51,678 nucleotides of DNA from Candidatus Termititenax persephonae. GTDB lineage: Bacteria; Margulisbacteria; Termititenacia; Termititenacales; Termititenacaceae. The notes beneath the pieces were generated by a model. That model was not told the DNA's origin, made no database searches, and saw nothing but the letters and a program-made list of their open reading frames with translations. The DNA is taken from assembly GCA_003864475.1 (NCBI GenBank), contig BGZO01000007.1, positions 1-51,678 of the forward strand, read 5' to 3'. Below, piece after piece: positions 15,853 to 51,678 of the stretch; within the stretch, counting starts at the first letter, position 1, and every line of letters starts with the position of its first letter. Made by a program: the position numbers and the translations under genes.

Positions 15853-17763
15853 ATGGACATTATCGGCAGTTTGGCTGGCAAGGGATATTTGCTTTATCGC
15901 AATGGCAGACCGGAAAACACCGCAGGCAATGTGGCAATCGATGTTAATGCTGATGGCAAAATTCAGAAACAGGAAATAATCAGCGACCTGAATGATGATA
16001 AAACTATTGCCACAGCTGAACTGCTAGATTTTGTAGTAAATAATGTAACAAGTCTGCCGCTGATAGTAAATATTACTAGAAGCATACAATCCGCGGAAAA
16101 TATCGGGGATTATTTTCAATATAATAAAAAGCTGGCTTTACTGACCATAGAAAAGGCCAGAAGAGAATACGATATTCCCAATATAGTCCGCAGGCTCAGT
16201 CCAGAATTGCTGGACGACAGAGAAGTTGTACTGGCCGCTGTGCAAAACAATGGCTCTGCCTTAAAATACGCCTCGGAAACCTTGCGCGGCGATAAAGAAT
16301 TGGCTTTGCTGGCTATAGAAAAGGCTATTGGCAGTGTTGGCTATTTGGATTTGGTAAGCAGTCTCAGTCCGGAATTGCTGGATGATAAAGAAGTAGTGCT
16401 GGCCGCTGTGAACAGAAATGGCATTGTATTGCGATATGCCTCAGAAACCCTGCGCGGCGATAGAGAAGTAGTACTGGCCGCTGTGAACAAAAATGGCTAT
16501 GCCTTAGAATACGCCTCGGAAACCTTGCGTGGCGATAGAGAAATAGTACTGGCCGCTGTGAACAGAAATGGCACTGTATTGCAATATGCCTCAGAAACCC
16601 TGCGCGGCGATAAGGAATTAGCTTTGCTGGCCATAGAAAAGGTCAGTGAATACGATAGTATTTCCAATCTAGTCCGTAGTCTCAGTCCGGAATTATTGGA
16701 CGATAGAGATGTAATGCTGGCCGCTATGAACATAAATAAAAATGGTTCTCTCTTAAAATACGCCTCGGAAACCCTGCGCGGCGATAAGGAATTGGCTTTG
16801 CTGGCTATAGAAAAGGCTATTGTCTGTGTTGACGATTTAGTAAGCAGTCTCAGTCCAGAATTACGAAACAACAGAGAAGTGATCCTGGCCGCTGTGAGCA
16901 AAGATGGCTATGCCTTAAAATACGCCTCGGAAACCTTGCGCGGCGATAAGGAATTGGCTTTGCTGGCTATAGAAAAAAGTGCAACTACTCCACTTCTGAC
17001 CTTGATAAAAAGCCTCGGGCAAGAATTACGAAACGACAGAGAAATAATGAAACTGGCAATAAGCAAAAATCTAAACAATATTTATTATTTATCGGACAAA
17101 CAGATCAATGACCCAGAGTTTAATAACTGGCTTCATTCTTTATCTTTGACAGATGATATACGCAGCTATCTGGCTTTATTCGGGCAAAAACCGTCTACAG
17201 GGCATATTCCGGCTGATACGGTTATCACTCTGGAGAATTATGCTTCTGTGGCGCTAGCTTTACTGGCGCAGGGTGAGGAGCAGAAAGTGTTGGCGGCCTT
17301 TCTGCGTTTGGGCAGTGAGTCGGTGTTTGTGGCAAATGGAGATAATGGCTGGGGCGGAGAGTCCGGCTATTCATATTATTACCAAACGATTGCCCCGAGA
17401 AATATAGCTTTATTAAGACATTATTATGCCTTATTACCAAATCCAGAAAAATTGCGGCAAATAATTACGGCTGATGTCCAGCCTGTGGAATATAACGCTA
17501 ATATTTATGTCCATAATGCCAGAATACTCACAGAGTTATTGGCTGAAACAAAAATAATATCCCAAAAAGATATTGCGCGGCTTTATTTTGAATATTTAGT
17601 CCTAACGCGTTTGGGTTTTGCTGGAGAAATCGCCTATCAAGAGCTGATAAAAATACATTCCTTGCCGCATAGCGTTGAGGAATTAAAACAGAATTTTAGT
17701 TATCAATATTATCGCTCAGAACGCGAAACTTATACCGGCCAGGAAGTTCAGGACGATTTTTAA
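15853..17763 (+). CDS. EF-hand plus DUF4116-repeat protein
   Basis: A 636-residue protein. Residues 30-41 (DVNADGKIQKQE) form a canonical EF-hand calcium loop, and residues 45-56 (DLNDDKTIATAE) a second, looser one. From about residue 90 to 400 there are tandem units of two alternating types, one ending in YASETLRGD and one with SLSPELLDDREVVLAAV, characteristic of DUF4116 (a domain of unknown function found in protists, viruses and symbionts). The C-terminal 230 residues contain a different helical domain. No signal peptide is visible. It has a strong AAGGAGG site and its own promoter. DUF4116 repeats may mediate protein binding, which is inference. Confidence 0.8.
   Translation: MDIIGSLAGKGYLLYRNGRPENTAGNVAIDVNADGKIQKQEIISDLNDDKTIATAELLDFVVNNVTSLPLIVNITRSIQSAENIGDYFQYNKKLALLTIEKARREYDIPNIVRRLSPELLDDREVVLAAVQNNGSALKYASETLRGDKELALLAIEKAIGSVGYLDLVSSLSPELLDDKEVVLAAVNRNGIVLRYASETLRGDREVVLAAVNKNGYALEYASETLRGDREIVLAAVNRNGTVLQYASETLRGDKELALLAIEKVSEYDSISNLVRSLSPELLDDRDVMLAAMNINKNGSLLKYASETLRGDKELALLAIEKAIVCVDDLVSSLSPELRNNREVILAAVSKDGYALKYASETLRGDKELALLAIEKSATTPLLTLIKSLGQELRNDREIMKLAISKNLNNIYYLSDKQINDPEFNNWLHSLSLTDDIRSYLALFGQKPSTGHIPADTVITLENYASVALALLAQGEEQKVLAAFLRLGSESVFVANGDNGWGGESGYSYYYQTIAPRNIALLRHYYALLPNPEKLRQIITADVQPVEYNANIYVHNARILTELLAETKIISQKDIARLYFEYLVLTRLGFAGEIAYQELIKIHSLPHSVEELKQNFSYQYYRSERETYTGQEVQDDF
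16186..16990 (+). repeat. Tandem intragenic DNA repeats of the DUF4116 region
   Basis: Six near-identical copies of a block encoding YASETLRGD recur here, joined to either an ELALLAIEK or an E[V/I]VLAAV block. Adjacent units match over long stretches at the DNA level, including silent positions. That implies recent duplication or gene conversion and allows copy number change by recombination. Confidence 0.8.
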
Positions 17764-22482: not shown

Positions 22483-23550
22483 ATGTCGGTTATCGCAATT
22501 ATCAACCAGAAAGGCGGCTGCGGCAAAACCACCACGACTATCAACTTGGCGGCAGCCTTAACCAAAAAAAAGCAACGAGTTTTGATTGTTGATTTTGATC
22601 CGCAAGGACATTCGTCGCTGGGGCTGGGGATAGACAGTCAGCAGATAAAACACACGGTGCAAAATGTGTTGCTGGACGACACAGCGTTTGCCGAGGCGGT
22701 CATCGCCCTGCCCGAAAATCTGGATTTGTTACCGTCCAATATCACGCTGGCGGCCTTAGAACAGAAACTGTCCGGACTGACCGGGCGCGAATATTATCTG
22801 CGTCAATTGCTGGAAACACAAAAACAAAATTACGACACGATAATTATTGACTGCCCGCCGCACCTCGGTCTCCTGAGCGTCAATGCCTTGCTGGCCGCCG
22901 ACCGTGTTATCGTGCCGGTCGAACCCGGTAAGTTTGGCCTAGATGGCCTGCAAAAACTGGTGGAAACAATCCAAATGCTCTGCCAAAAAACCAACCATCA
23001 GCTGGACATCAAATATCTGCTTTCGCTGTTTGACTTGGAGTCTGAGTTTGCCGAAACATTCGCCCAAAGATTCCGCCGCGATTACGGCGACAGCCTACTA
23101 CACAGCCGCATTCACCGTTCCAGTGTCATTCGCGACGCGGCACAGGCTGGCAAAGCCGTCGTGAATTTTCAAACGCGCTCCCTGCCCTATCTTGACTACA
23201 TGGCCTTGGCCAACGAGGTCATTCTCTGGCAAAACCAAGAAATACTCGCCAAGGTCATCAATAGTCCGGCCGCTCCGCCGCAAAAAACACCGCTGGGCGT
23301 ATGCTTTACCTTGCAGACTGAGGATGCCGAGGCCGTGCATCTCGCCGGGGATTTCAACAACTGGATTCCCGAAGCCGCACCGCTAATCAAGCTGGAACAA
23401 AAAGGCGTATGGTACACTTTCCTGTCGTTGCAGGACGGGCGGTACAATTACCAGTATGTCGTCGACGGCAAATATCAAACCGACCCTGCCAACCCTGAGG
23501 TTGCCGACTCGCCTTTCGGCGTAAAACAATCAGTGCTGGAGATTGGTTAA
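22483..23550 (+). CDS. ParA/Soj-type ATPase fused to a glycogen-binding CBM48 domain
   Basis: A 355-residue protein. Residues 1-255 are a ParA/MinD-type ATPase: deviant Walker A KGGCGKTT at 10-17, DFDPQGHSSLGLG, DCPPHLGLLSVNAL, and a C-terminal region with HRSSVIRDAAQAGK. Residues 270-355 are an AMPK-type glycogen-binding module (CBM48): FTLQTEDAEAVHLAGDFNNW, GVWYTFLSLQDGRYNYQYVVDGKY, ending in the usual DP-N-P region. ParA ATPases form nucleotide-dependent dimers that position chromosomes, plasmids or protein bodies. No parB gene follows. The fusion suggests positioning of glycogen or a polysaccharide-bound cargo, which is inference. The gene is the last host-like gene before the mobile island. 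Confidence 0.9.
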   Translation: MSVIAIINQKGGCGKTTTTINLAAALTKKKQRVLIVDFDPQGHSSLGLGIDSQQIKHTVQNVLLDDTAFAEAVIALPENLDLLPSNITLAALEQKLSGLTGREYYLRQLLETQKQNYDTIIIDCPPHLGLLSVNALLAADRVIVPVEPGKFGLDGLQKLVETIQMLCQKTNHQLDIKYLLSLFDLESEFAETFAQRFRRDYGDSLLHSRIHRSSVIRDAAQAGKAVVNFQTRSLPYLDYMALANEVILWQNQEILAKVINSPAAPPQKTPLGVCFTLQTEDAEAVHLAGDFNNWIPEAAPLIKLEQKGVWYTFLSLQDGRYNYQYVVDGKYQTDPANPEVADSPFGVKQSVLEIG

Positions 23551-23604
23551 ACCGCGCGAGGGCGCAAGCCGTATGCTCCATGTACGGCAATATCAGCGCA
23601 AAGC

Positions 23605-23684
23605 ATTTTAATCCACGTAGCGGAGGTGTCCAGCAACGCACGGGTGTACGGCGTTTCAATCCACGTTCCTGTATGAGGAGCGAC
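23605..23684 (-). CRISPR. Solitary type I-C-like CRISPR repeat with a degenerate neighbour
   Basis: 23653-23684 is a 32-base unit, on the minus strand GTCGCTCCTCATACAGGAAC followed by GTGGATTGAAAC. It has the length, inner palindrome and GTGGATTGAAAC end of subtype I-C repeats and differs at two positions from the copy at 29256. A degenerate copy retaining ACGTGGATTAAAA lies at about 23605-23617, too close for a normal spacer. No cas gene or leader is visible. Taken alone this would be weak; the cleaner copy at 29256 supports it. Confidence 0.5.
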
Positions 23685-23874
23685 CTGTCCCCAAGTCGGC
23701 TGTACAGGCGTTATTCCTGACATATTTAACCTCCAAAAGTGGTGTAAGTCGCGCCCTGCCCAGCGCGTCATCGTATGCCCACATGCGACCATTTTGCCTG
23801 AAATAAATAATTTTTCCATTAGATTTTTGAGTAAAAAACTGGACATTGATTTTTTCAGGGAAAATGCTAGAATT
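23656..23874 (-). pseudogene. C-terminal gene fragment ending inside the repeat
   Basis: An open minus-strand frame of about 72 codons without a proper start. It reads GKIIYFRQNGRMWAYDDALG in the middle and ends in GRSSYRNVD, the last ten codons and stop being encoded by the 32-base repeat. The fragment at 29259 ends in GRSSYRSVD in the same frame. The upstream end is lost near the poly-C tract. I do not recognise the family; the amino-acid texture resembles phage fibre or surface protein fragments. A competing frame starting at 23727 after GGAGG is also open. Confidence 0.4.
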
Positions 23875-23880
23875 TTAGCG

Positions 23881-24539
23881 ATGAGTTATAATAGATTTTC
23901 ACCCCCCCCCCCCCCCCCCCCATTTTTTCGCTTAGGTACGCCAAAAATCTAACATATTATTGCAAGCGATTTGCAACAATAACCCTGCTGTCCCTGTTTG
24001 TTGTCGGCTGCGGGGTAACAAAAGATGCTTCGGGCGGCGGCGGGAGCAGTAGCGGCACCGCGCCGCCAAGCGCTCCGGTGGAGCCTAAGTTTTACACGCT
24101 GACAATATCGAGGCGCAAGGATGTAACCGCACCAACGGTTAATTTTTTCGTGGACACGGTGCTGATTGAGAATACCGATTGCCCGCGCTCCTCAAAAGAA
24201 TACAAGGACCCGAACTACCCATACGACACAAATAATCCCCATTATTGGTTTAAGGACATTTCCTATACCCTGACGGAGAATACAAAAGTTTACGCCGTGT
24301 TAAATACCAATATTGTGGGAGCCGACTGGCAAAAACATAATTATTTTAGTTTTGAGGTCAGTAAAAATATTGGGACAGAGAACACCCTAACAAAATATTA
24401 CGCGCAAGAAAAAGATGCGACGCTGGAGCTCGTAATGACCGCTAATTATATTGTCAGCAGATTTGCTCTTGATTGGTGGTCATATTCCCAGTATGACCCT
24501 GACAGCAAACCGCCGAATATTATTACAAAGCCGGAGTGA
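23881..24539 (+). CDS. Phase-variable-type lipoprotein (currently out of frame)
   Basis: The lipoprotein frame is open from just after the poly-C tract to 24539 and encodes a hydrophobic signal segment (FATITLLSLFVVGCG) with lipobox cysteine at 24009-24011, a Gly/Ser/Pro linker, and a roughly 155-residue body beginning KFYTLTISRRKD. There is no start codon in that frame between the tract and the signal peptide. An ATG at 23881 precedes the tract but is off by one frame; adding one C or losing two would join it. The same design, with identical 87-base spacing from tract to cysteine, occurs at 29842. The body is unrecognised. Start assignment is inference. Confidence 0.6.
23902..23921 (+). repeat. 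Poly-C tract of 20 bases
   Basis: Twenty consecutive C between ATGAGTTATAATAGATTTTCA and an ATTTTTTCGC tail. It lies between a potential ATG (23881) and the lipoprotein reading frame. Such mononucleotide runs slip readily during replication, and also during sequencing, so the exact length is uncertain. Confidence 0.9.
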
Positions 24540-25442: not shown

Positions 25443-26000
25443 TTATTTATTAAGCCCGCAACACTTTTTATATTTTTTACCACTCCCACATGGGCATGGT
25501 TCATTTCTTCCAATTCTATCAAAGCCAACTTCTGGCATAACATAAGAATGTTTCATAAAATCAATATGTCCAATTGACGGTATACGGAATGAAAAAACTG
25601 TTTTTTTGTTAAAATTAGAAATTGCAAAATCACCCACCGTAATAATATCCATTCCTATTAACATATCACATCCTTGGGGAGTTCCTTCTACAACCAACAC
25701 ATTGCTTACCTTTACTTTGTTCGGCAAACCTACATTTACATAATAAAGATTACTCGGAACATCTTTTTCACTAGGGGTGCTTATCAATGTTTTTGACACA
25801 ACACTTAAATCAAGTTTCCTTGCTATTTCTGGTCTTATTAAAGAACAACTTGCCCCGGTATCCCACAACGCTTTAACTTTTTGGGTTTTATTCGTATTAT
25901 AAGCATTCTCAATTAAAACTTCTGTTATAAGTCCTCGCAATAACCCATTCTGGGAAACATATGTGAAACTATAACTTTGGCGCTGAGATGTATTTGCCAT
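25443..26000 (-). CDS. Retropepsin-like aspartyl protease with C-terminal SEC-C zinc motif
   Basis: A 185-residue protein. The N-terminal domain has the retroviral-type aspartyl protease signature [12 protein letters not shown] (catalytic Asp near residue 47) and, further on, [18 protein letters not shown], the second conserved hydrophobic-GxD element of the fold. One copy per chain means a homodimer is needed for activity. Residues 163-183 form a SEC-C motif, [18 protein letters not shown], a zinc finger found on SecA and many nuclease or protease proteins. It is coupled to the 87-residue gene upstream (stop TAG abuts ATG). Phage-borne position suggests a maturation protease or a defence/toxin role; substrate unknown. 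Confidence 0.85.
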
Positions 26001-28683: not shown

Positions 28684-29220
28684 TTACATCACTATGAGCC
28701 TGATATTTTGCTTCTGATTCTTTTTTCTTTCTCCCAAATACTTAATACTCGGCTGGGGGGAAGTTTGTGTAGCTTGTTGTTTTTTCTGTGGCACTTTTCC
28801 GCCAAACTCGACAAGGTTCGCTTCATTCGCTTTTCGCGTGGCCTCTATTGCTTCTCTTAAACGCTTTATCGCCCAGCGCACTTCTGATTCAGGGGAGTCA
28901 AGATTACCAAATGCTTTCTCGACCCTTATACCTTCTTTATCTGATATCGCGCCGGGCAGAAATTTCTTTATATTCTCTAAAACGTTAAACGCATTGAAAG
29001 TCTGGATGAAAGCCGCGTCTTCCATCCATTGTTTGTTTTTTTTATTATTTTTATCAAAAAATGGATTTTTATTTCTCATACTGTAAATACTGTTCTGACC
29101 AATTCCCTTGTTGTAGCCAGTATTGAAACGGTCTAACACGTCTTCCATTTTTGTTAAATTTGCTAAATCGTTTTCAGATTTTGGGAGAAAATCATTATAT
29201 GCGGTTAGAGCGAGGAGCGA
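28684..29220 (-). pseudogene. 5'-truncated phage gene
   Basis: About 178 codons of a helical, Lys/Asn-rich phage-like protein, from LLALTAYNDFLPKSENDLAN to the stop at 28684. Its coding texture ends abruptly at about 29211-29221, where the sequence becomes the last bases of a CRISPR-type repeat. Upstream in the same frame the translation is arginine-rich and not protein-like. The gene has therefore lost its start and N-terminus by a rearrangement at the repeat. A central segment reads MEDVLDRFNTGYNKGIGQN. Function unknown. Confidence 0.6.
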
Positions 29221-29287
29221 CCAAAATGGATTAGCAGGTCGGTGCGGTCTGTTTCGTTTCAATCCACGCTCCTGTACGAGGAGCGAC
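29211..29287 (-). CRISPR. Type I-C-like CRISPR remnant: repeat, 34-base spacer, partial repeat
   Basis: 29256-29287 is a 32-base repeat; on the minus strand GTCGCTCCTCGTACAGGAGC then GTGGATTGAAAC. The arms CGCTCCT and AGGAGCG pair perfectly around a CGTAC loop. This is the form of subtype I-C repeats. Next (29255-29222) come exactly 34 bases, a normal I-C spacer length, and then the first 11 bases of another repeat (GTCGCTCCTCG) before the truncated phage gene begins. No cas genes or leader in the window. Confidence 0.65.
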
Positions 29288-29800
29288 CCAGCGCGGACAC
29301 GGCGACCTCCGCGCCCTGAAAAAATATGTACATCTTGCTTGGATTGGCATTCCTTGTGGTGATGACCAGCCCGGACTGGTGGCCGACCGCAAGCGAGCCG
29401 AGTTGCGCACCGTATACGATGCTGTTGTTGGACGAATTTTGGTAAAAAAACCTCAGCCTTATCCTGATGGAATTTACTGTCGCCCCCGTGCCGAGCGCGG
29501 GAAAATCCCGGACTGCGAGTACGTCGGTAAATTTTGGCCGCCGTACCCCCAGAGCCAGAGCTTGTTGGTCGCGTTGTACGCGATGCTGGTGTTCGATGCC
29601 TGCGATATGGTGTACTGCCTCTGCGTGGACATGTCGTCCGACCACGCCGTCGTCCTCGCGCGGCCAAGGATGCCCGTGATTTGCGCCCGCTCCGGCGCAC
29701 CCGCCTGCGAGATGTCCTCCACCCTCGCCGAGGGTATGGGACTCTTGATTGCGTACCATATCGGTCGACAGAAACATTGACACCCTGCGAGGGCGGTAGT
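29259..29800 (-). pseudogene. Frameshifted gene fragment ending inside the repeat
   Basis: Protein-like sequence runs on the minus strand through three frames: VSVDRYGTQSRVPYP, then ARTTAWSDDMSTQRQYTISQ with LWLWGYGGQN, then LGTGATVNSIRIRLRFFYQN to GRSSYRSVD and a stop inside the repeat. The switches (near 29750 and 29495) indicate at least two indels, so it is a decaying gene. GC content is higher than in the surrounding phage genes. The family is not recognised; repeated NG/W/Y-rich texture suggests an extracellular or fibre protein. Confidence 0.5.
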
Positions 29801-29841: not shown

Positions 29842-30452
29842 GTGTTTAGGTTTATTTTACCCCCCCCCCCCCCAATTTTTCGCGTAGGCACGCCAAAAAC
29901 ACAGCACATTATTGCAAATACATCGCAATAATAATCCTGCTGGCGTTCTTCTCCGCAGGTTGCGGTAAGACAGCGGAGCAAACCGACAGCGGAAGCTCTG
30001 TCGCATCGCCCAGTACTCCTACTCCGCCGCCGGAAACGCCTAAGGTTGTAGCCGAGGACTTGCGCGGGGAGTGGTATTCGGAATATGGAATACAAAAATA
30101 TCCAGTAACATACGGGGATATATTAAAATCATATGCTGATATATATTTGTATCGCTTCACAATAACCAGCGCGACAATGAATATGAAGAACGGAAACTCT
30201 TTTAATGCGTATACGACCGAAAATAGAATTGCCATAAAAGAAACAGACGAAACTATTTATACTTTTACCCGTATTCCCTTATCGGAATATCAGCAGGCTT
30301 ACGATGATGCCGTTGTTGAGGGAAACCCTGGGAAAATACTACAAGCGCAGCATAGGCTTGATGCCGCGCTGGTGCATACTCCAATAGATTTTACTAGCAA
30401 TAATGTTACGACCCGACTATGGCGCGAGCCGGAAACATGGCCAGCGGAATAA
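29842..30452 (+). CDS. Phase-variable-type lipoprotein, second copy (currently out of frame)
   Basis: From the end of the poly-C tract the frame is open to 30452. It encodes FSRRHAKN, a hydrophobic segment (IAIIILLAFFSAGCG) with the lipobox cysteine at 29961-29963, a Ser/Pro-rich linker and a body of about 140 residues starting DLRGEWYSEYG. The first 29 codons align codon by codon with the copy at 23922 (FSLRYAKN, lipobox VVGC). Tract-to-cysteine distance is 87 bases in both. The only upstream start, GTG at 29842, is out of frame by the same amount as in the first copy. The body differs from the other lipoproteins; DLRGEWYS could be a lipocalin-like strand but this is speculative. Confidence 0.6.
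29860..29873 (+). repeat. Poly-C tract of 14 bases
   Basis: Fourteen consecutive C, followed by AATTTTTCGCGTAGGCACGCC, matching the tail at 23922 and at the window start. It lies between a possible GTG (29842) and the lipoprotein frame. Confidence 0.9.
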
Positions 30453-30824: not shown

Positions 30825-32243
30825 ATGTCCCAAAATGCCATAATAAAAAGCGGAACAGCCATTGATTATGGGTTTATAAAACTACACCCAGACCTTGAAG
30901 GTTTAATTTGGATTGGCGACGGAAAATATAAAAACTATTCCCCCGATAAAAACCTTGAAAATACTTTTGAACTTAACGGATTTGTATTTTCTTTGGAATT
31001 TAGCAATATGGAAGAGCCGAGTTTAATATATACAAAACTTCCAATAAAAGCGCCAGAAACGCCAGTTGAAAGACCACCATACTGGCCGCGTTATTCTGAT
31101 ATATCGCCGGAACAAAGATTTATGTATCTCCAGCTTTTAACGAACCCATATAATACCAAAACAGATATAGGCTATGTTTTTATTTTGTATTACGGGCTTG
31201 AGCGGCACTTGCTACAGGGAAATTTTGAGCGGGCATATCGTCTTATACTAAAATTAAGAGATGTACACAAAAATAAATCTTTTCAGTATTACACAGCTAA
31301 CGCCCTAATACTTACTGCAAAATTACACAAGCGCGAGGATATGTTGCTTGAATTTTTAGGCTCACTGAATAAAGAATACGAATTGCAATTTTCTGAAAAT
31401 CTTTTACTGTTGTTGTGTTATGAGTTTAATATTTCTATTTCGCCAAAAATAATAATACGCTTGGCTAAAATATTTGAATTTACGAATACAAATTATATAA
31501 AAAAATACCCTGAAATATTCGAGAAAAATTTAAAAGAGACGCTCATAGAAAAATACGGCAATGAGAATTTTTCATTAAATAATGTATTTAATAAAGCGGA
31601 ACTTAAAAAATTGAAATTATCTGACGTAAATATATTTGCAAATATATCTATTTTAAACAAGACATTTCAAGTTCCGCTTATGCGTGAAAACTTTAGGTTG
31701 AAAAACGAACTATATGCAGCCTTGAAACTTGCACACGAAAAAACAAAATCTATGGTTGCTAAAAACAGAAAAAGTGGCAATCCTCTAGCCCCCGTTGCGC
31801 CAAAAAAGAGAAGCCCAAAGAAAAAAGAAGCTCCAGAATTATTGGAGCGGGCGCGGATTCAAGCGGCACGCTCCGCAGGTGAGCGACAAAAAAACATAGT
31901 TAAATCTTCGTCGGTATATACGGGAAAGCTAACATGGGTACGGGATAAATCATGTAATGACAATTGTAAATATTATAATTATTGTGATAAATCCTATGAT
32001 GTAAATGATTCGGAACTTGAAAATTGGCCGCCTCTTGCCTGTTGTGGGCGTTTAAGGCCTGAACTTAAATCAGATGCGGAAATATGGGAACTGACAAGGC
32101 AGGGAAGTGTATCGCCAACTAAAGAGCAAGATAAAACACAGCAAAAAACCGACACCGAATACAAGCCAAACTTTATTTTCGTCCTGATTATAATTTTGGG
32201 ATTTATTTTGCTTGTGTTTACCAAAGTACTGGAAGTATTATAA
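30825..32243 (+). CDS. TerB_N-domain protein with Cys cluster and C-terminal membrane anchor
   Basis: A 472-residue protein. Residues 80-160 carry the TerB N-terminal domain pattern: PPYWPRYSDISPEQRFMYLQ, then ILYYGLERHLLQGNFERAYR. TerB_N occurs in proteins tied to tellurite/phage-resistance type membrane stress systems. Residues 330-365 are basic (KKRSPKKKEAPELLERAR). A cysteine cluster follows (C377, C381, C387, C406, C407), which could bind zinc or an Fe-S cluster. A single hydrophobic helix (about 450-468) at the extreme C-terminus makes it a tail-anchored membrane protein. It sits between a lipoprotein cassette and the phage tail genes, so it is probably cargo (a moron). Confidence 0.65.
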   Translation: MSQNAIIKSGTAIDYGFIKLHPDLEGLIWIGDGKYKNYSPDKNLENTFELNGFVFSLEFSNMEEPSLIYTKLPIKAPETPVERPPYWPRYSDISPEQRFMYLQLLTNPYNTKTDIGYVFILYYGLERHLLQGNFERAYRLILKLRDVHKNKSFQYYTANALILTAKLHKREDMLLEFLGSLNKEYELQFSENLLLLLCYEFNISISPKIIIRLAKIFEFTNTNYIKKYPEIFEKNLKETLIEKYGNENFSLNNVFNKAELKKLKLSDVNIFANISILNKTFQVPLMRENFRLKNELYAALKLAHEKTKSMVAKNRKSGNPLAPVAPKKRSPKKKEAPELLERARIQAARSAGERQKNIVKSSSVYTGKLTWVRDKSCNDNCKYYNYCDKSYDVNDSELENWPPLACCGRLRPELKSDAEIWELTRQGSVSPTKEQDKTQQKTDTEYKPNFIFVLIIILGFILLVFTKVLEVL

Positions 32244-39943: not shown

Positions 39944-40213
39944 ATGGACATCTCGGACATCATCAATTACATCGTTACCATTGTCGGTCTGGGCGCGTCC
40001 TTTGTCAGCATTGGTGTGTCCTACGGGTCGCTGAAAAACAAAGTTGAGCAGCACGCCGAGGACATCAAAAACCACCGCGAAAATATCGGCAAGCTGTTTG
40101 ATGCGCAGCGCGATGTGTCCACGCTCACCGCGAAGCTGGAAGGGCGGTTGGAAGTTATAGAGACCACGCTCAACCGCATAGCCGAAAAGATTGAGCGCGT
40201 GCTGGAGAGGTAA
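39944..40213 (+). CDS. Small membrane protein with coiled coil (XhlA/holin-like)
   Basis: An 89-residue protein with an N-terminal hydrophobic helix (about residues 4-27, DIINYIVTIVGLGASFVSIG), followed by a long helix with heptads (LKNKVEQHAEDIKNHRENIG...). This is the reverse of the usual XhlA order but matches phage hemolysin/holin-associated helper proteins. It directly precedes the endolysin, consistent with a lysis role. Confidence 0.6.
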   Translation: MDISDIINYIVTIVGLGASFVSIGVSYGSLKNKVEQHAEDIKNHRENIGKLFDAQRDVSTLTAKLEGRLEVIETTLNRIAEKIERVLER

Positions 40214-40216
40214 ATA

Positions 40217-40624
40217 ATGGGCTACAGACCGCAACATTACAAGATACAGGAGCTGGTCAATCCGAAACTCCTATCGGAGTTTGGCGAGGCTAAATGCTGG
40301 GAAATGTTAGATGCTGATTTGCTTTACATGGCCGACGCTATAAGGGATAAGTACGGGGCTATCGGAGTTAATTATGGCGGCCTTGTGGACTGCGGCTTGA
40401 GGGACTGGCGCAACCCGACGACTGGAAGCAGCGCAAGCGCGCACTGCCATGGCAAAGCATTAGATTTACATATCTTAAACATTCCGCAGACAGTAGGGGC
40501 TTATGACAAAGTGCGCGAGGAGTTACTCGACAATGCTATGTTTTTGCGGCTCTGTTTTGAGACCGGCGTTAATTGGCTACACATCGACATAAATAATCGT
40601 GAATACCGGACGTTTAGCGCATGA
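40217..40624 (+). CDS. M15-family peptidase endolysin
   Basis: A 135-residue enzyme of the VanY/M15A peptidase group, cleaving peptidoglycan cross-links. The zinc motifs are visible: SAHCHGKALDLH (S-x-H-x-x-G-x-A-x-D pattern, near residues 72-84) and WLHIDI (the second His and Asp, near 117-122). It has no signal peptide, so it needs the holin for release. It overlaps the following small gene by four bases (ATGA). Confidence 0.85.
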   Translation: MGYRPQHYKIQELVNPKLLSEFGEAKCWEMLDADLLYMADAIRDKYGAIGVNYGGLVDCGLRDWRNPTTGSSASAHCHGKALDLHILNIPQTVGAYDKVREELLDNAMFLRLCFETGVNWLHIDINNREYRTFSA

Positions 40625-43560: not shown

Positions 43561-44355
43561 ATGAACGAATTAGAATTATTTGCTGCTTATATGTCCGGCA
43601 AGGGCTGGAAAGAAATAACAAAATATACTTATAAAATTATCATCAAAAATTTCATATCAAATAATCCTGACTATCGATATTTTGACAGCACAAAAGCCAG
43701 AAATTTAGTAAATGCCATACGGCAGACAAAGACACGTAAGACCACAAGGCAAATGGTAATTGTGTTCAAATACTTTTATCACTGTTTAGGACTTGATCCG
43801 CAAATATGGAATATCCGCATTGTGCCGGAGCGAAAAATACCAAAGCATTTATCACAAGAAAAAATCAACTGTATATTAGACAACATACAGGGTGAAGACA
43901 TTTACACAATAAGAGACAAGGCGATATATGAACTTATATATGCTGCAGGATTGAGAACTTCCGAAGTGCGAGACGTAACCATATCCGATATAAATTCAAA
44001 AGAAATGTACATAAAGATCGGCAAGAAACGCGCTTATTTTGGCAATAGGGCAAAAGAAGCAATAATAAAATATCTCAATATTAGAGAACAATTTAACCCT
44101 GTTAGCGAGCAATTATTTTTAAATGTACATGGCAAACCTATAAGCCGCCAAAAAATACTTTCAAGATTAAAAAAATATTCAGGCTCAAGCCCATTGGAGT
44201 TGCGAAATTCTCTAGCCGTGCATCTTTTTGATAATGGCGCGGATGCAAAATCGGTGCAAAAAATAATGCGCTATCGCAGAACTAATCATATAAATCGTTA
44301 TGTAGAATTAAGCAAGCCATTCAAAGACAAAATGTTAGGTTATGCGAGCCTGTAA
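43561..44355 (+). CDS. Tyrosine recombinase, full length but with altered active site
   Basis: A 264-residue XerC/D-type protein: SAM-like core-binding domain (about 1-85) and catalytic domain (90-264). Arg I is present in AGLRTSEV. The box II region reads SPLELRNSLAVHL, where the family has HxLRHSxAxHL, so the first His is replaced by Leu and the second by Asn. The third position (GH) reads RY. The nucleophile Tyr is present in NRYVEL. Loss of both His residues predicts weak or no catalysis alone. It overlaps a second recombinase by 14 bases. Confidence 0.85.
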   Translation: MNELELFAAYMSGKGWKEITKYTYKIIIKNFISNNPDYRYFDSTKARNLVNAIRQTKTRKTTRQMVIVFKYFYHCLGLDPQIWNIRIVPERKIPKHLSQEKINCILDNIQGEDIYTIRDKAIYELIYAAGLRTSEVRDVTISDINSKEMYIKIGKKRAYFGNRAKEAIIKYLNIREQFNPVSEQLFLNVHGKPISRQKILSRLKKYSGSSPLELRNSLAVHLFDNGADAKSVQKIMRYRRTNHINRYVELSKPFKDKMLGYASL

Positions 44356-44800
44356 ACATGAAGAAATAGAAAAAATTTTTAGAGATAGAGACGTGCCATC
44401 GGAAACGTTATACTATCTGGCTTTGTGTTATTACTCTGCTCTACGTGTATCTGAAGCATTAAATTATAACGGATCAGAGATAATAACCGGAAAAGGTGGC
44501 CATGAAAGATATGTTTATTTTAGTGAAAAAGCAGAAAAATATGGCGCAATTAAAAAACAGAAATTAACCAGATATGCTTTATGCAATAGATTATACCGAG
44601 TATCAAAGCGTATTCTCGGCTATAGAATTTCTCCGCATGATCTACGTCGTTCAAGAGCGACAACTCTTTACAAAAAAACTCAAGACATATTAAGCGTGCA
44701 AGCATTATTGGGGCATAAGGATACCGTTACGACCTTTCAATACATTGTTTATTCGGATAATGATGTAGAAAAAACGTACCGGATTTGTTTCAAGAGATAA
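44342..44800 (+). CDS. Tyrosine recombinase, catalytic domain only
   Basis: A 152-residue protein consisting of just the catalytic domain: SALRVSEAL (Arg I), SPHDLRRSRATTLY (HxxR), LLGHKDTVTTFQYI (GH and the nucleophile Tyr). All key residues are intact, but the N-terminal core-binding domain is missing. Its start overlaps the end of the preceding, catalytically altered full-length recombinase, so they are made together. The two may form a mixed complex in which one supplies DNA grip and the other catalysis; this is inference. Confidence 0.85.
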   Translation: MRACKHEEIEKIFRDRDVPSETLYYLALCYYSALRVSEALNYNGSEIITGKGGHERYVYFSEKAEKYGAIKKQKLTRYALCNRLYRVSKRILGYRISPHDLRRSRATTLYKKTQDILSVQALLGHKDTVTTFQYIVYSDNDVEKTYRICFKR

Positions 44801-51057: not shown

Positions 51058-51678
51058 ATGAACAAACAACAAACAACAAACAACAAACAACAAACAACAA
51101 ACAACAAACAACAAACAACAAACAACAACAAGACACTACTAACTGTTTTATATAAAATATTAAAGAAATTTTCTCGGCCTGTTATAAAACTTATTCCACG
51201 GGTTGTTTATATTCCATTGGCCAGATTAATGTTTGCTAATATTTATGACAAAACACGGTTTTTGTATAAAAACAACAAAAATGTGTTTGAAATTATATAT
51301 ACTAATAATCTCTGGGATTCGAGAGAGTCTCGTTCAGGCGTCGGCTCGGAGATAGATACCACTAAAACGATCAGAATGATATTGCCGAAGCTGTGGAAAA
51401 AGTACAAGATAAAAACTTTTTTAGATATTCCCTGCGGCGATTATAATTGGATGAAAGAAGTAAATAAGGAAACTATTACTTATATTGGCGGAGATGTAGT
51501 CCAAGAAATTATTGCACAAAATAAGCAGAAATATGCCCGCGGCAATATATCGTTTGTTGTGCTGGATATAACGCACGATGTTTTGCCGCAGGTTGATATG
51601 ATTTTTTGCAAAGATTGTTTACAGCATTTATCCTATGAAAGTGTGCGCCGGGCGTTATTAAATTTTCAAAAAAGCAAA
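51058..51678 (+). CDS. SAM-dependent methyltransferase with heptanucleotide tract (partial)
   Basis: The frame opens at ATG 51058 with RBS AGGTAGG overlapping the hydA stop, and is open to the window edge (207 codons, C-terminus missing). The first 21 codons after Met come from nine AACAAAC units and encode repeated NKQQTTN. After a hydrophobic/basic stretch, residues from about 120 form a class I methyltransferase: TFLDIPCGDYNWM (SAM-binding motif I), GGDVVQEIIAQN (motif II), FVVLDITHDVLP and MIFCKDCLQHLS (the post-motif acidic/aromatic site). Similar proteins modify sugars or surface polymers; the target is unknown. Its 7-base repeat unit makes frame switching possible. Confidence 0.85.
   Translation, partial: MNKQQTTNNKQQTTNNKQQTTNNNKTLLTVLYKILKKFSRPVIKLIPRVVYIPLARLMFANIYDKTRFLYKNNKNVFEIIYTNNLWDSRESRSGVGSEIDTTKTIRMILPKLWKKYKIKTFLDIPCGDYNWMKEVNKETITYIGGDVVQEIIAQNKQKYARGNISFVVLDITHDVLPQVDMIFCKDCLQHLSYESVRRALLNFQKSK
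51061..51123 (+). repeat. Nine tandem AACAAAC heptamers within the methyltransferase start
   Basis: Nine exact copies of AACAAAC (63 bases) directly after the start codon, followed by AACAACAAG. Since 7 is not a multiple of 3, gain or loss of one unit shifts the frame; the present number keeps the frame open. Confidence 0.95.

Follow-up and report, generated by a model that had tools for sequence, protein, structure and literature searches.

How did a CRISPR repeat, a single spacer and the first bases of another repeat come to lie between phage genes in a bacterial genome, and does such a unit still act? We examined this question in a window of 51,678 nucleotides, which is the whole of contig BGZO01000007.1 (C7) from Candidatus Termititenax persephonae (genus Ca. 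Termititenax, Ca. Margulisiibacteriota). The assembly, G000, comprises 1.83 Mb in 201 contigs and is 89.9% complete.

Results

Two repeat-spacer units in the window

The unit that raised the question, here called unit B, consists of three parts.

29256-29287, minus strand: intact 32-nt type I-C-like repeat with a 7-bp hairpin; a near-identical repeat occurs in the array of a congener
29222-29255, minus strand: 34-nt spacer, GAAACAGACCGCACCGACCTGCTAATCCATTTTG on the minus strand, matching a prophage gene
29211-29221, minus strand: first 11 nt of a second repeat, recognised by its sequence match to the first; end of the array

Both the coordinates and the anatomy agree exactly with the sequence-only reading of this DNA, which had described a perfect 32-nt repeat, a 34-nt spacer and the 11-nt start of a second repeat. 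The repeat reads GTTTCAATCCACGCTCCTGTACGAGGAGCGAC on the plus strand and GTCGCTCCTCGTACAGGAGCGTGGATTGAAAC on the minus strand, the latter being the usual orientation of type I-C repeats, and its length of about 32 nt and its layout, GTCGC..stem..GTGGATTGAAAC, fit that class. Its 7-bp stem (CGCTCCT/AGGAGCG) gives a fold of -10.8 kcal/mol. Shuffled sequence yields an expected number of 0 chance matches to the repeat at ≤3 mismatches, and the 11-nt stub agrees with it at 11 of 11 bases at the fitting offset (p about 2e-6), a length too short for a hairpin of its own.

A second unit, absent from the sequence-only reading, lies 5.6 kb away in the same orientation.

23653-23684, minus strand: second I-C-like repeat, 30/32 identical to that of unit B, stem broken by one substitution
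23618-23652, minus strand: 35-nt spacer-like stretch between this repeat and a degenerate repeat end
23605-23617, minus strand: degenerate 13-nt 3' end of a repeat (CGTGGATTAAAAT; p about 9e-5), leader-distal

The full repeats of the two units differ by two mismatches, and the predicted fold is -4.6 kcal/mol for unit A, against -10.8 kcal/mol for unit B. Each unit thus holds one full and one partial repeat, with spacers of 34 nt (B) and 35 nt (A); our yardstick for spacer length was the I-C array of a congener, where spacers are mostly 33-35 nt. No third copy of the repeat occurs in the 1.83-Mb assembly. When 90 related genomes were searched for a protospacer of the spacer-like stretch of unit A, allowing ≤3 mismatches of 25, only the stretch itself was returned. 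An open reading frame of 58 codons (23541-23714, minus strand) leaves phage-like sequence, crosses repeat A and reaches the parA side without a stop; its ribosome-binding site is a good one (MSGITPVQPTWGQ, followed by VAPHTGTWIET...). We considered unit A as a genuine phage gene on this basis and rejected it, given that 30 of the 32 bases are those of repeat B and that no relative was found.

A type I-C locus in a congener

In Candidatus Termititenax aidoneus NkOx7-01 (G001), an array of 14 repeats adjoins cas2, cas1, cas4 and the end of a partial cas3. Its repeat, GTTTCAATCCACGCTCCCGCGTGAGGAGCGAC, differs from that of unit B at only 4 positions, all of them in or adjoining the loop. The G001 Cas1 passes the curated I-C model with 516.8 bits (cut-off 385), and the Cas2c and Cas4c models top their tables for its Cas2 and Cas4. 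Csd1/Cas8c was not found in G001, where the contig ends within cas3 and the locus is incomplete. The trailer repeat of this array is degenerate as well, and every G001 copy of the repeat sits inside the array. Judged by its neighbours in the congener, the repeat of unit B is of class I-C, because the same class of repeat stands in an array beside Cas1c there; the genome of the window itself showed no I-C machinery. Copies beyond unit B, on whose existence the sequence-only reading had made its CRISPR remnant depend, were found both in the same genome (unit A) and in the 14-repeat congener array, and this check did not refute that reading.

I-C-like repeats that are solitary or decayed were met in two further genomes of the phylum as well (L076:676-771 and 1502-1533; L077:1501-1532), so such repeat debris is not peculiar to the window. 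One of them adjoins a truncated transposase-like open reading frame, which we take to resemble an IS110-type transposase, and for one repeat the gene start that follows is shared by the two genomes.

The spacer matches a phage gene of Ca. T. aidoneus

The sequence-only reading had proposed looking for a protospacer of the 34-nt spacer in phages. The search led to a lytic-region gene of a prophage on contig BGZN01000027.1 of Ca. T. aidoneus (C27 of G001; L069:7866-7899), which agrees with the spacer at 29/34 bases; a second prophage of that species (BGZN01000025.1) agrees at 25/34, that is, with 9 mismatches. Under a simple equal-base model, about 6e-6 matches of 29/34 are expected in the eight genomes searched. 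A degenerate-codon search of 84,980 genomes for the peptide ETDRTDLLIH found it in only two places, both in Ca. T. aidoneus prophages. The differences between spacer and protospacer fall mostly at synonymous codon positions, as expected if the spacer was derived from another allele of the matched gene. By these comparisons, the spacer of unit B is a real one, taken from foreign DNA. The type I-C remnant proposed earlier is supported by this protospacer in a congener prophage together with the congener I-C locus and its nearly identical repeat.

The PAM side of both known protospacer relatives reads TTT, while the PAM of type I-C is TTC (PMC8406640). At this position TTC would be a synonymous Phe codon of TTT, and the original protospacer allele may have carried a TTC PAM. 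Pfam and PHROG gave no match for the gene that the spacer matches, its protein was not found in GenBank phages or IMG/VR, and blastn of the spacer region against GenBank phages gave chance-level matches only.

The matched gene in the sister prophage adjoins L069:8149-8409, whose product is about 88% identical in amino acids to that of 39944-40213 in the window, a gene with a weak spanin-like PHROG match. The next gene of the window occupies the slot of the matched gene.

40217-40624, plus strand: endolysin-like gene (phrog_894; weak Pfam M15 match below the cut-off), in the slot held by the spacer-matched gene in the sister prophage

This gene is unrelated to the spacer-matched gene, and the prophage of the window therefore lacks the matched gene in its slot.

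These relations bear on the idea that unit B is a prophage-borne mini-array, in which one spacer directed against a related phage would borrow the host I-C Cas proteins for a putative superinfection exclusion. Prophage DNA surrounds or borders both units, the spacer has its match in a prophage with a closely related neighbouring gene, the different gene in the matched slot would spare the carrier from self-targeting, as in the pattern described for archaeal viruses (PMC6858448), and the hairpin of the unit B repeat is intact. A target that is present in a related phage and missing from the carrier is, however, also expected from host immunity, since only a phage without the target could lysogenise. 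Neither an exact nor a degenerate copy of the repeat, nor any such repeat-spacer unit, was found in IMG/VR, and the copies in G001 all belong to its array. The second repeat of only 11 nt without a hairpin leaves the flanking repeats incomplete, the adjoining phage genes are broken, and neither a leader, a promoter nor host I-C cas genes came to light in the searches described below. We consider a prophage-borne mini-array, the main alternative to a host array, rather unlikely on balance, and a little less likely still that unit B is a putative working one-spacer I-C mini-array, supplied with host Cas proteins in trans, that keeps out sister phages in which the gene exists in its other version while the carrier has exchanged it.

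cas genes, leader and promoter

A profile search of G000, a genome about 10% incomplete, found neither Csd1/Cas8c nor Cas1c. The sole Cas1 of this genome, on contig C43, adjoins Csm1 and a different array.

L070 (G000:C43:1-4300): type III-A locus with Csm1, Cas2, a Cas1 whose best score is to type II Cas1, and a 14-repeat array

An I-C locus is thus likely absent from G000, with 10% of the genome missing from the assembly. Spacers of the G001 I-C array and of the G000 III-A array had no match at ≤7 mismatches in the window or in the phage loci fetched for comparison. The flanks of units A and B resemble the G001 leader at shuffle level only, and no promoter was found upstream of unit B on the minus strand.

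A near-solitary, perfect repeat in a prophage also recalls the RNA anti-CRISPRs (Racr), of which type I-C examples are known (PMC10651486); the repeat would then be a putative decoy that titrates the host I-C Cas proteins. A decoy, however, does not need the real phage-matching spacer that follows the repeat, and the stem of unit A is broken. The lack of a promoter upstream of unit B argues against this function too, and no acr gene was recognised beside it. We regard it as highly improbable.

Phage genes on both sides of unit B

Unit B stands between two phage genes, and unit A is found at the margin of the prophage region.

29288-29800, minus strand: silent cassette for a tail-fibre C-terminus, cut off at repeat B and with an apparent frameshift (matched by L071 and L069)
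28684-29210, minus strand: phage gene remnant adjoining the partial repeat (phrog_2534, profile 336-414 of 435, E=3.9e-5)

The cassette begins with a conserved inversion-site segment (WYAIKSPI..SARVEDISQAG) and represents one inversion arm plus a cassette that ends at repeat B and falls short of the 273-aa example. In a G001 prophage (L071:4341-7235), inverted repeats of 85 nt, 84% identical, surround an active C-terminus and a convergent silent cassette; the tail-fibre-like gene there is intact, unlike the cassette in the window. This is the layout of an invertible tail-fibre switch, from which we infer the name tail fibre for a gene that has no PHROG match. We also considered homologous recombination between an array spacer and the matching protospacer in the tail-fibre cassette, and set this model aside, as the sequence 33-36 nt upstream of either repeat, A or B, shows no clear TTC PAM.

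The gene on the other side has probably lost its 5' part, to judge from its profile match. The sequence-only reading had described it as a phage gene without its 5' end, and this finds moderate support only: the phrog_2534 match, on residues 76-160 of the remnant, reaches only the end part of the profile, but no intact relative was found and the genus holds no close one. A candidate relative in IMG/VR (L111) was judged spurious, lying within a terminase-like open reading frame.

A junction inside a repeat, in a genome fragmented into 201 contigs, could also be a short-homology join, by which an assembly or whole-genome-amplification chimera fused phage DNA with a read from an array. Such an artefact would, however, have to arise twice to give two units with diverged repeats, no source array is left in the assembly, and the drift of unit A from the consensus looks like mutation and not like a join. 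An overlap of 11 nt is, moreover, shorter than the usual assembly k-mers, which also counts against a chimera. We therefore hold this explanation to be improbable, if slightly less so than a decoy.

Boundaries of the prophage region

Two features mark the ends of the region.

22483-23550, plus strand: chromosomal ParA-CBM48 fusion gene (Pfam AAA_31 and AMPK1_CBM), on the host side of the boundary beside unit A
43561-44800, plus strand: two tyrosine recombinases (Pfam PF00589; phrog_1), at the right end

Unit A lies about 55 bp past the parA-CBM48 gene, which shows about 70% DNA identity in four congeners with differing downstream neighbours. Its product, which joins a ParA-type ATPase to a glycogen-binding domain (CBM48/AMPK1), is conserved in these four. 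At the right end, hydrogenase-related genes follow directly after the integrases. The two prophage ends share no common word of 10 or more that could mark an attachment site.

Discussion

Our preferred explanation, to which we give a probability of about 0.55, is that phage DNA broke up one host I-C array, of which units A and B are the now inert pieces. A single type I-C array would have lain downstream of the chromosomal parA-CBM48 gene until phage DNA broke it, by prophage insertion together with illegitimate recombination. Unit B would then be a piece with an intact repeat, one phage-derived spacer and the stub of the next repeat on the minus strand, and unit A, leader-distal beside parA, would represent the decayed trailer; G000 would have lost both the leader and the I-C cas genes. 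In a working array, the crRNA of the B spacer would have acted against phages with the matched lytic-region gene; a crRNA from unit B, if processed, would consist of the TGGATTGAAAC 5' handle and the spacer. We infer the single ancestral array and this order of events from the common orientation of the units, their closeness, and the position of the more decayed unit at the leader-distal side beside parA, a gene conserved in the genus. The trailer ends of CRISPR arrays are usually the more degenerate. Both units are most likely inert now, as suggested by the lack of leader similarity, of an upstream promoter and of I-C cas genes and by the second repeat of only 11 nt.

Several observations count against a host array. 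Being inside the prophage or at its margin, the units may have been brought in by the phage; no leader and cas end was found on the far side of the prophage; the repeat and stem of unit B are perfect, more than an old fossil needs; and an I-C locus may be missing from an assembly that is about 10% incomplete. The sequence-only reading had left two origins side by side, recombination between an array and the prophage or a mini-array carried by the element. Recombination is favoured because the phage genes appear broken on both sides, while the mini-array becomes the lesser option for want of a leader, a promoter and a hairpin in the second repeat.

Compared with known systems, the units resemble orphan, cas-less I-C array remnants in their repeat, 7-bp stem, ATTGAAAC end, spacers of 34-35 nt and degenerate distal end, and also in that a matching cas1c/cas4/cas2 locus with its array is present in a congener. 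They differ from such remnants in forming two one-spacer pieces 5.6 kb apart that are split by phage DNA, and in the phage genes truncated at the unit B junctions. Virus-borne mini-CRISPR arrays are known from the Sulfolobales viruses SPV1 and SPV2 (Medvedeva et al. 2019, PMC6858448). Like these, unit B has one spacer, no cas genes and a location in phage DNA, and its spacer matches a related phage while the matched slot is replaced in the carrier. Unlike these, it is bacterial and of type I-C, has no leader or promoter and a truncated second repeat, and no reciprocal array was found. The solitary repeat units known as Racr (Camara-Wilpert et al. 2023, PMC10651486) share with it an I-C array repeat mimic in a prophage, but unit B combines a true spacer, matched by a phage gene, with part of a second repeat, and neither a promoter nor an acr neighbour was seen.

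The case links an orphan CRISPR fragment with both an I-C locus and a phage target that can be identified, all within one uncultured termite-gut genus, and it suggests a route to the loss of an I-C array and its fragmentation by phage DNA. An active unit would be the bacterial counterpart of the archaeal virus-borne mini-arrays; a fossil one would be an ordinary, though well documented, instance of CRISPR loss.

Other features of the window

The prophage region holds a gene for a TerB_N protein (30825-32243) that also matches PADLOC SngA (E=1e-14) and is a possible defence gene. The gene at 25443-26000 encodes a retropepsin-like aspartyl protease domain and, at the C-terminus, a SEC-C motif; it stands beside a small gene, and a similar pair occurs in the sister prophage (L069:3252-4125). 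Tracts of 12-20 C occur at 23902-23921 and 29860-29873 and elsewhere in G000 (C4:26574, C12:31710 and C67:509). They are followed by a conserved TTTTTCGCxTAGGTACGCCAAAAA-like segment and then by lipoprotein-like or short open reading frames; the motif is repeated through the genus, several contigs end at such tracts, and the tracts are possible phase-variable switches. Tandem repeats are found at 16384-16976 (75/168-bp units, coding) and at 51061-51128 (AACAAAC, 9.7 copies).
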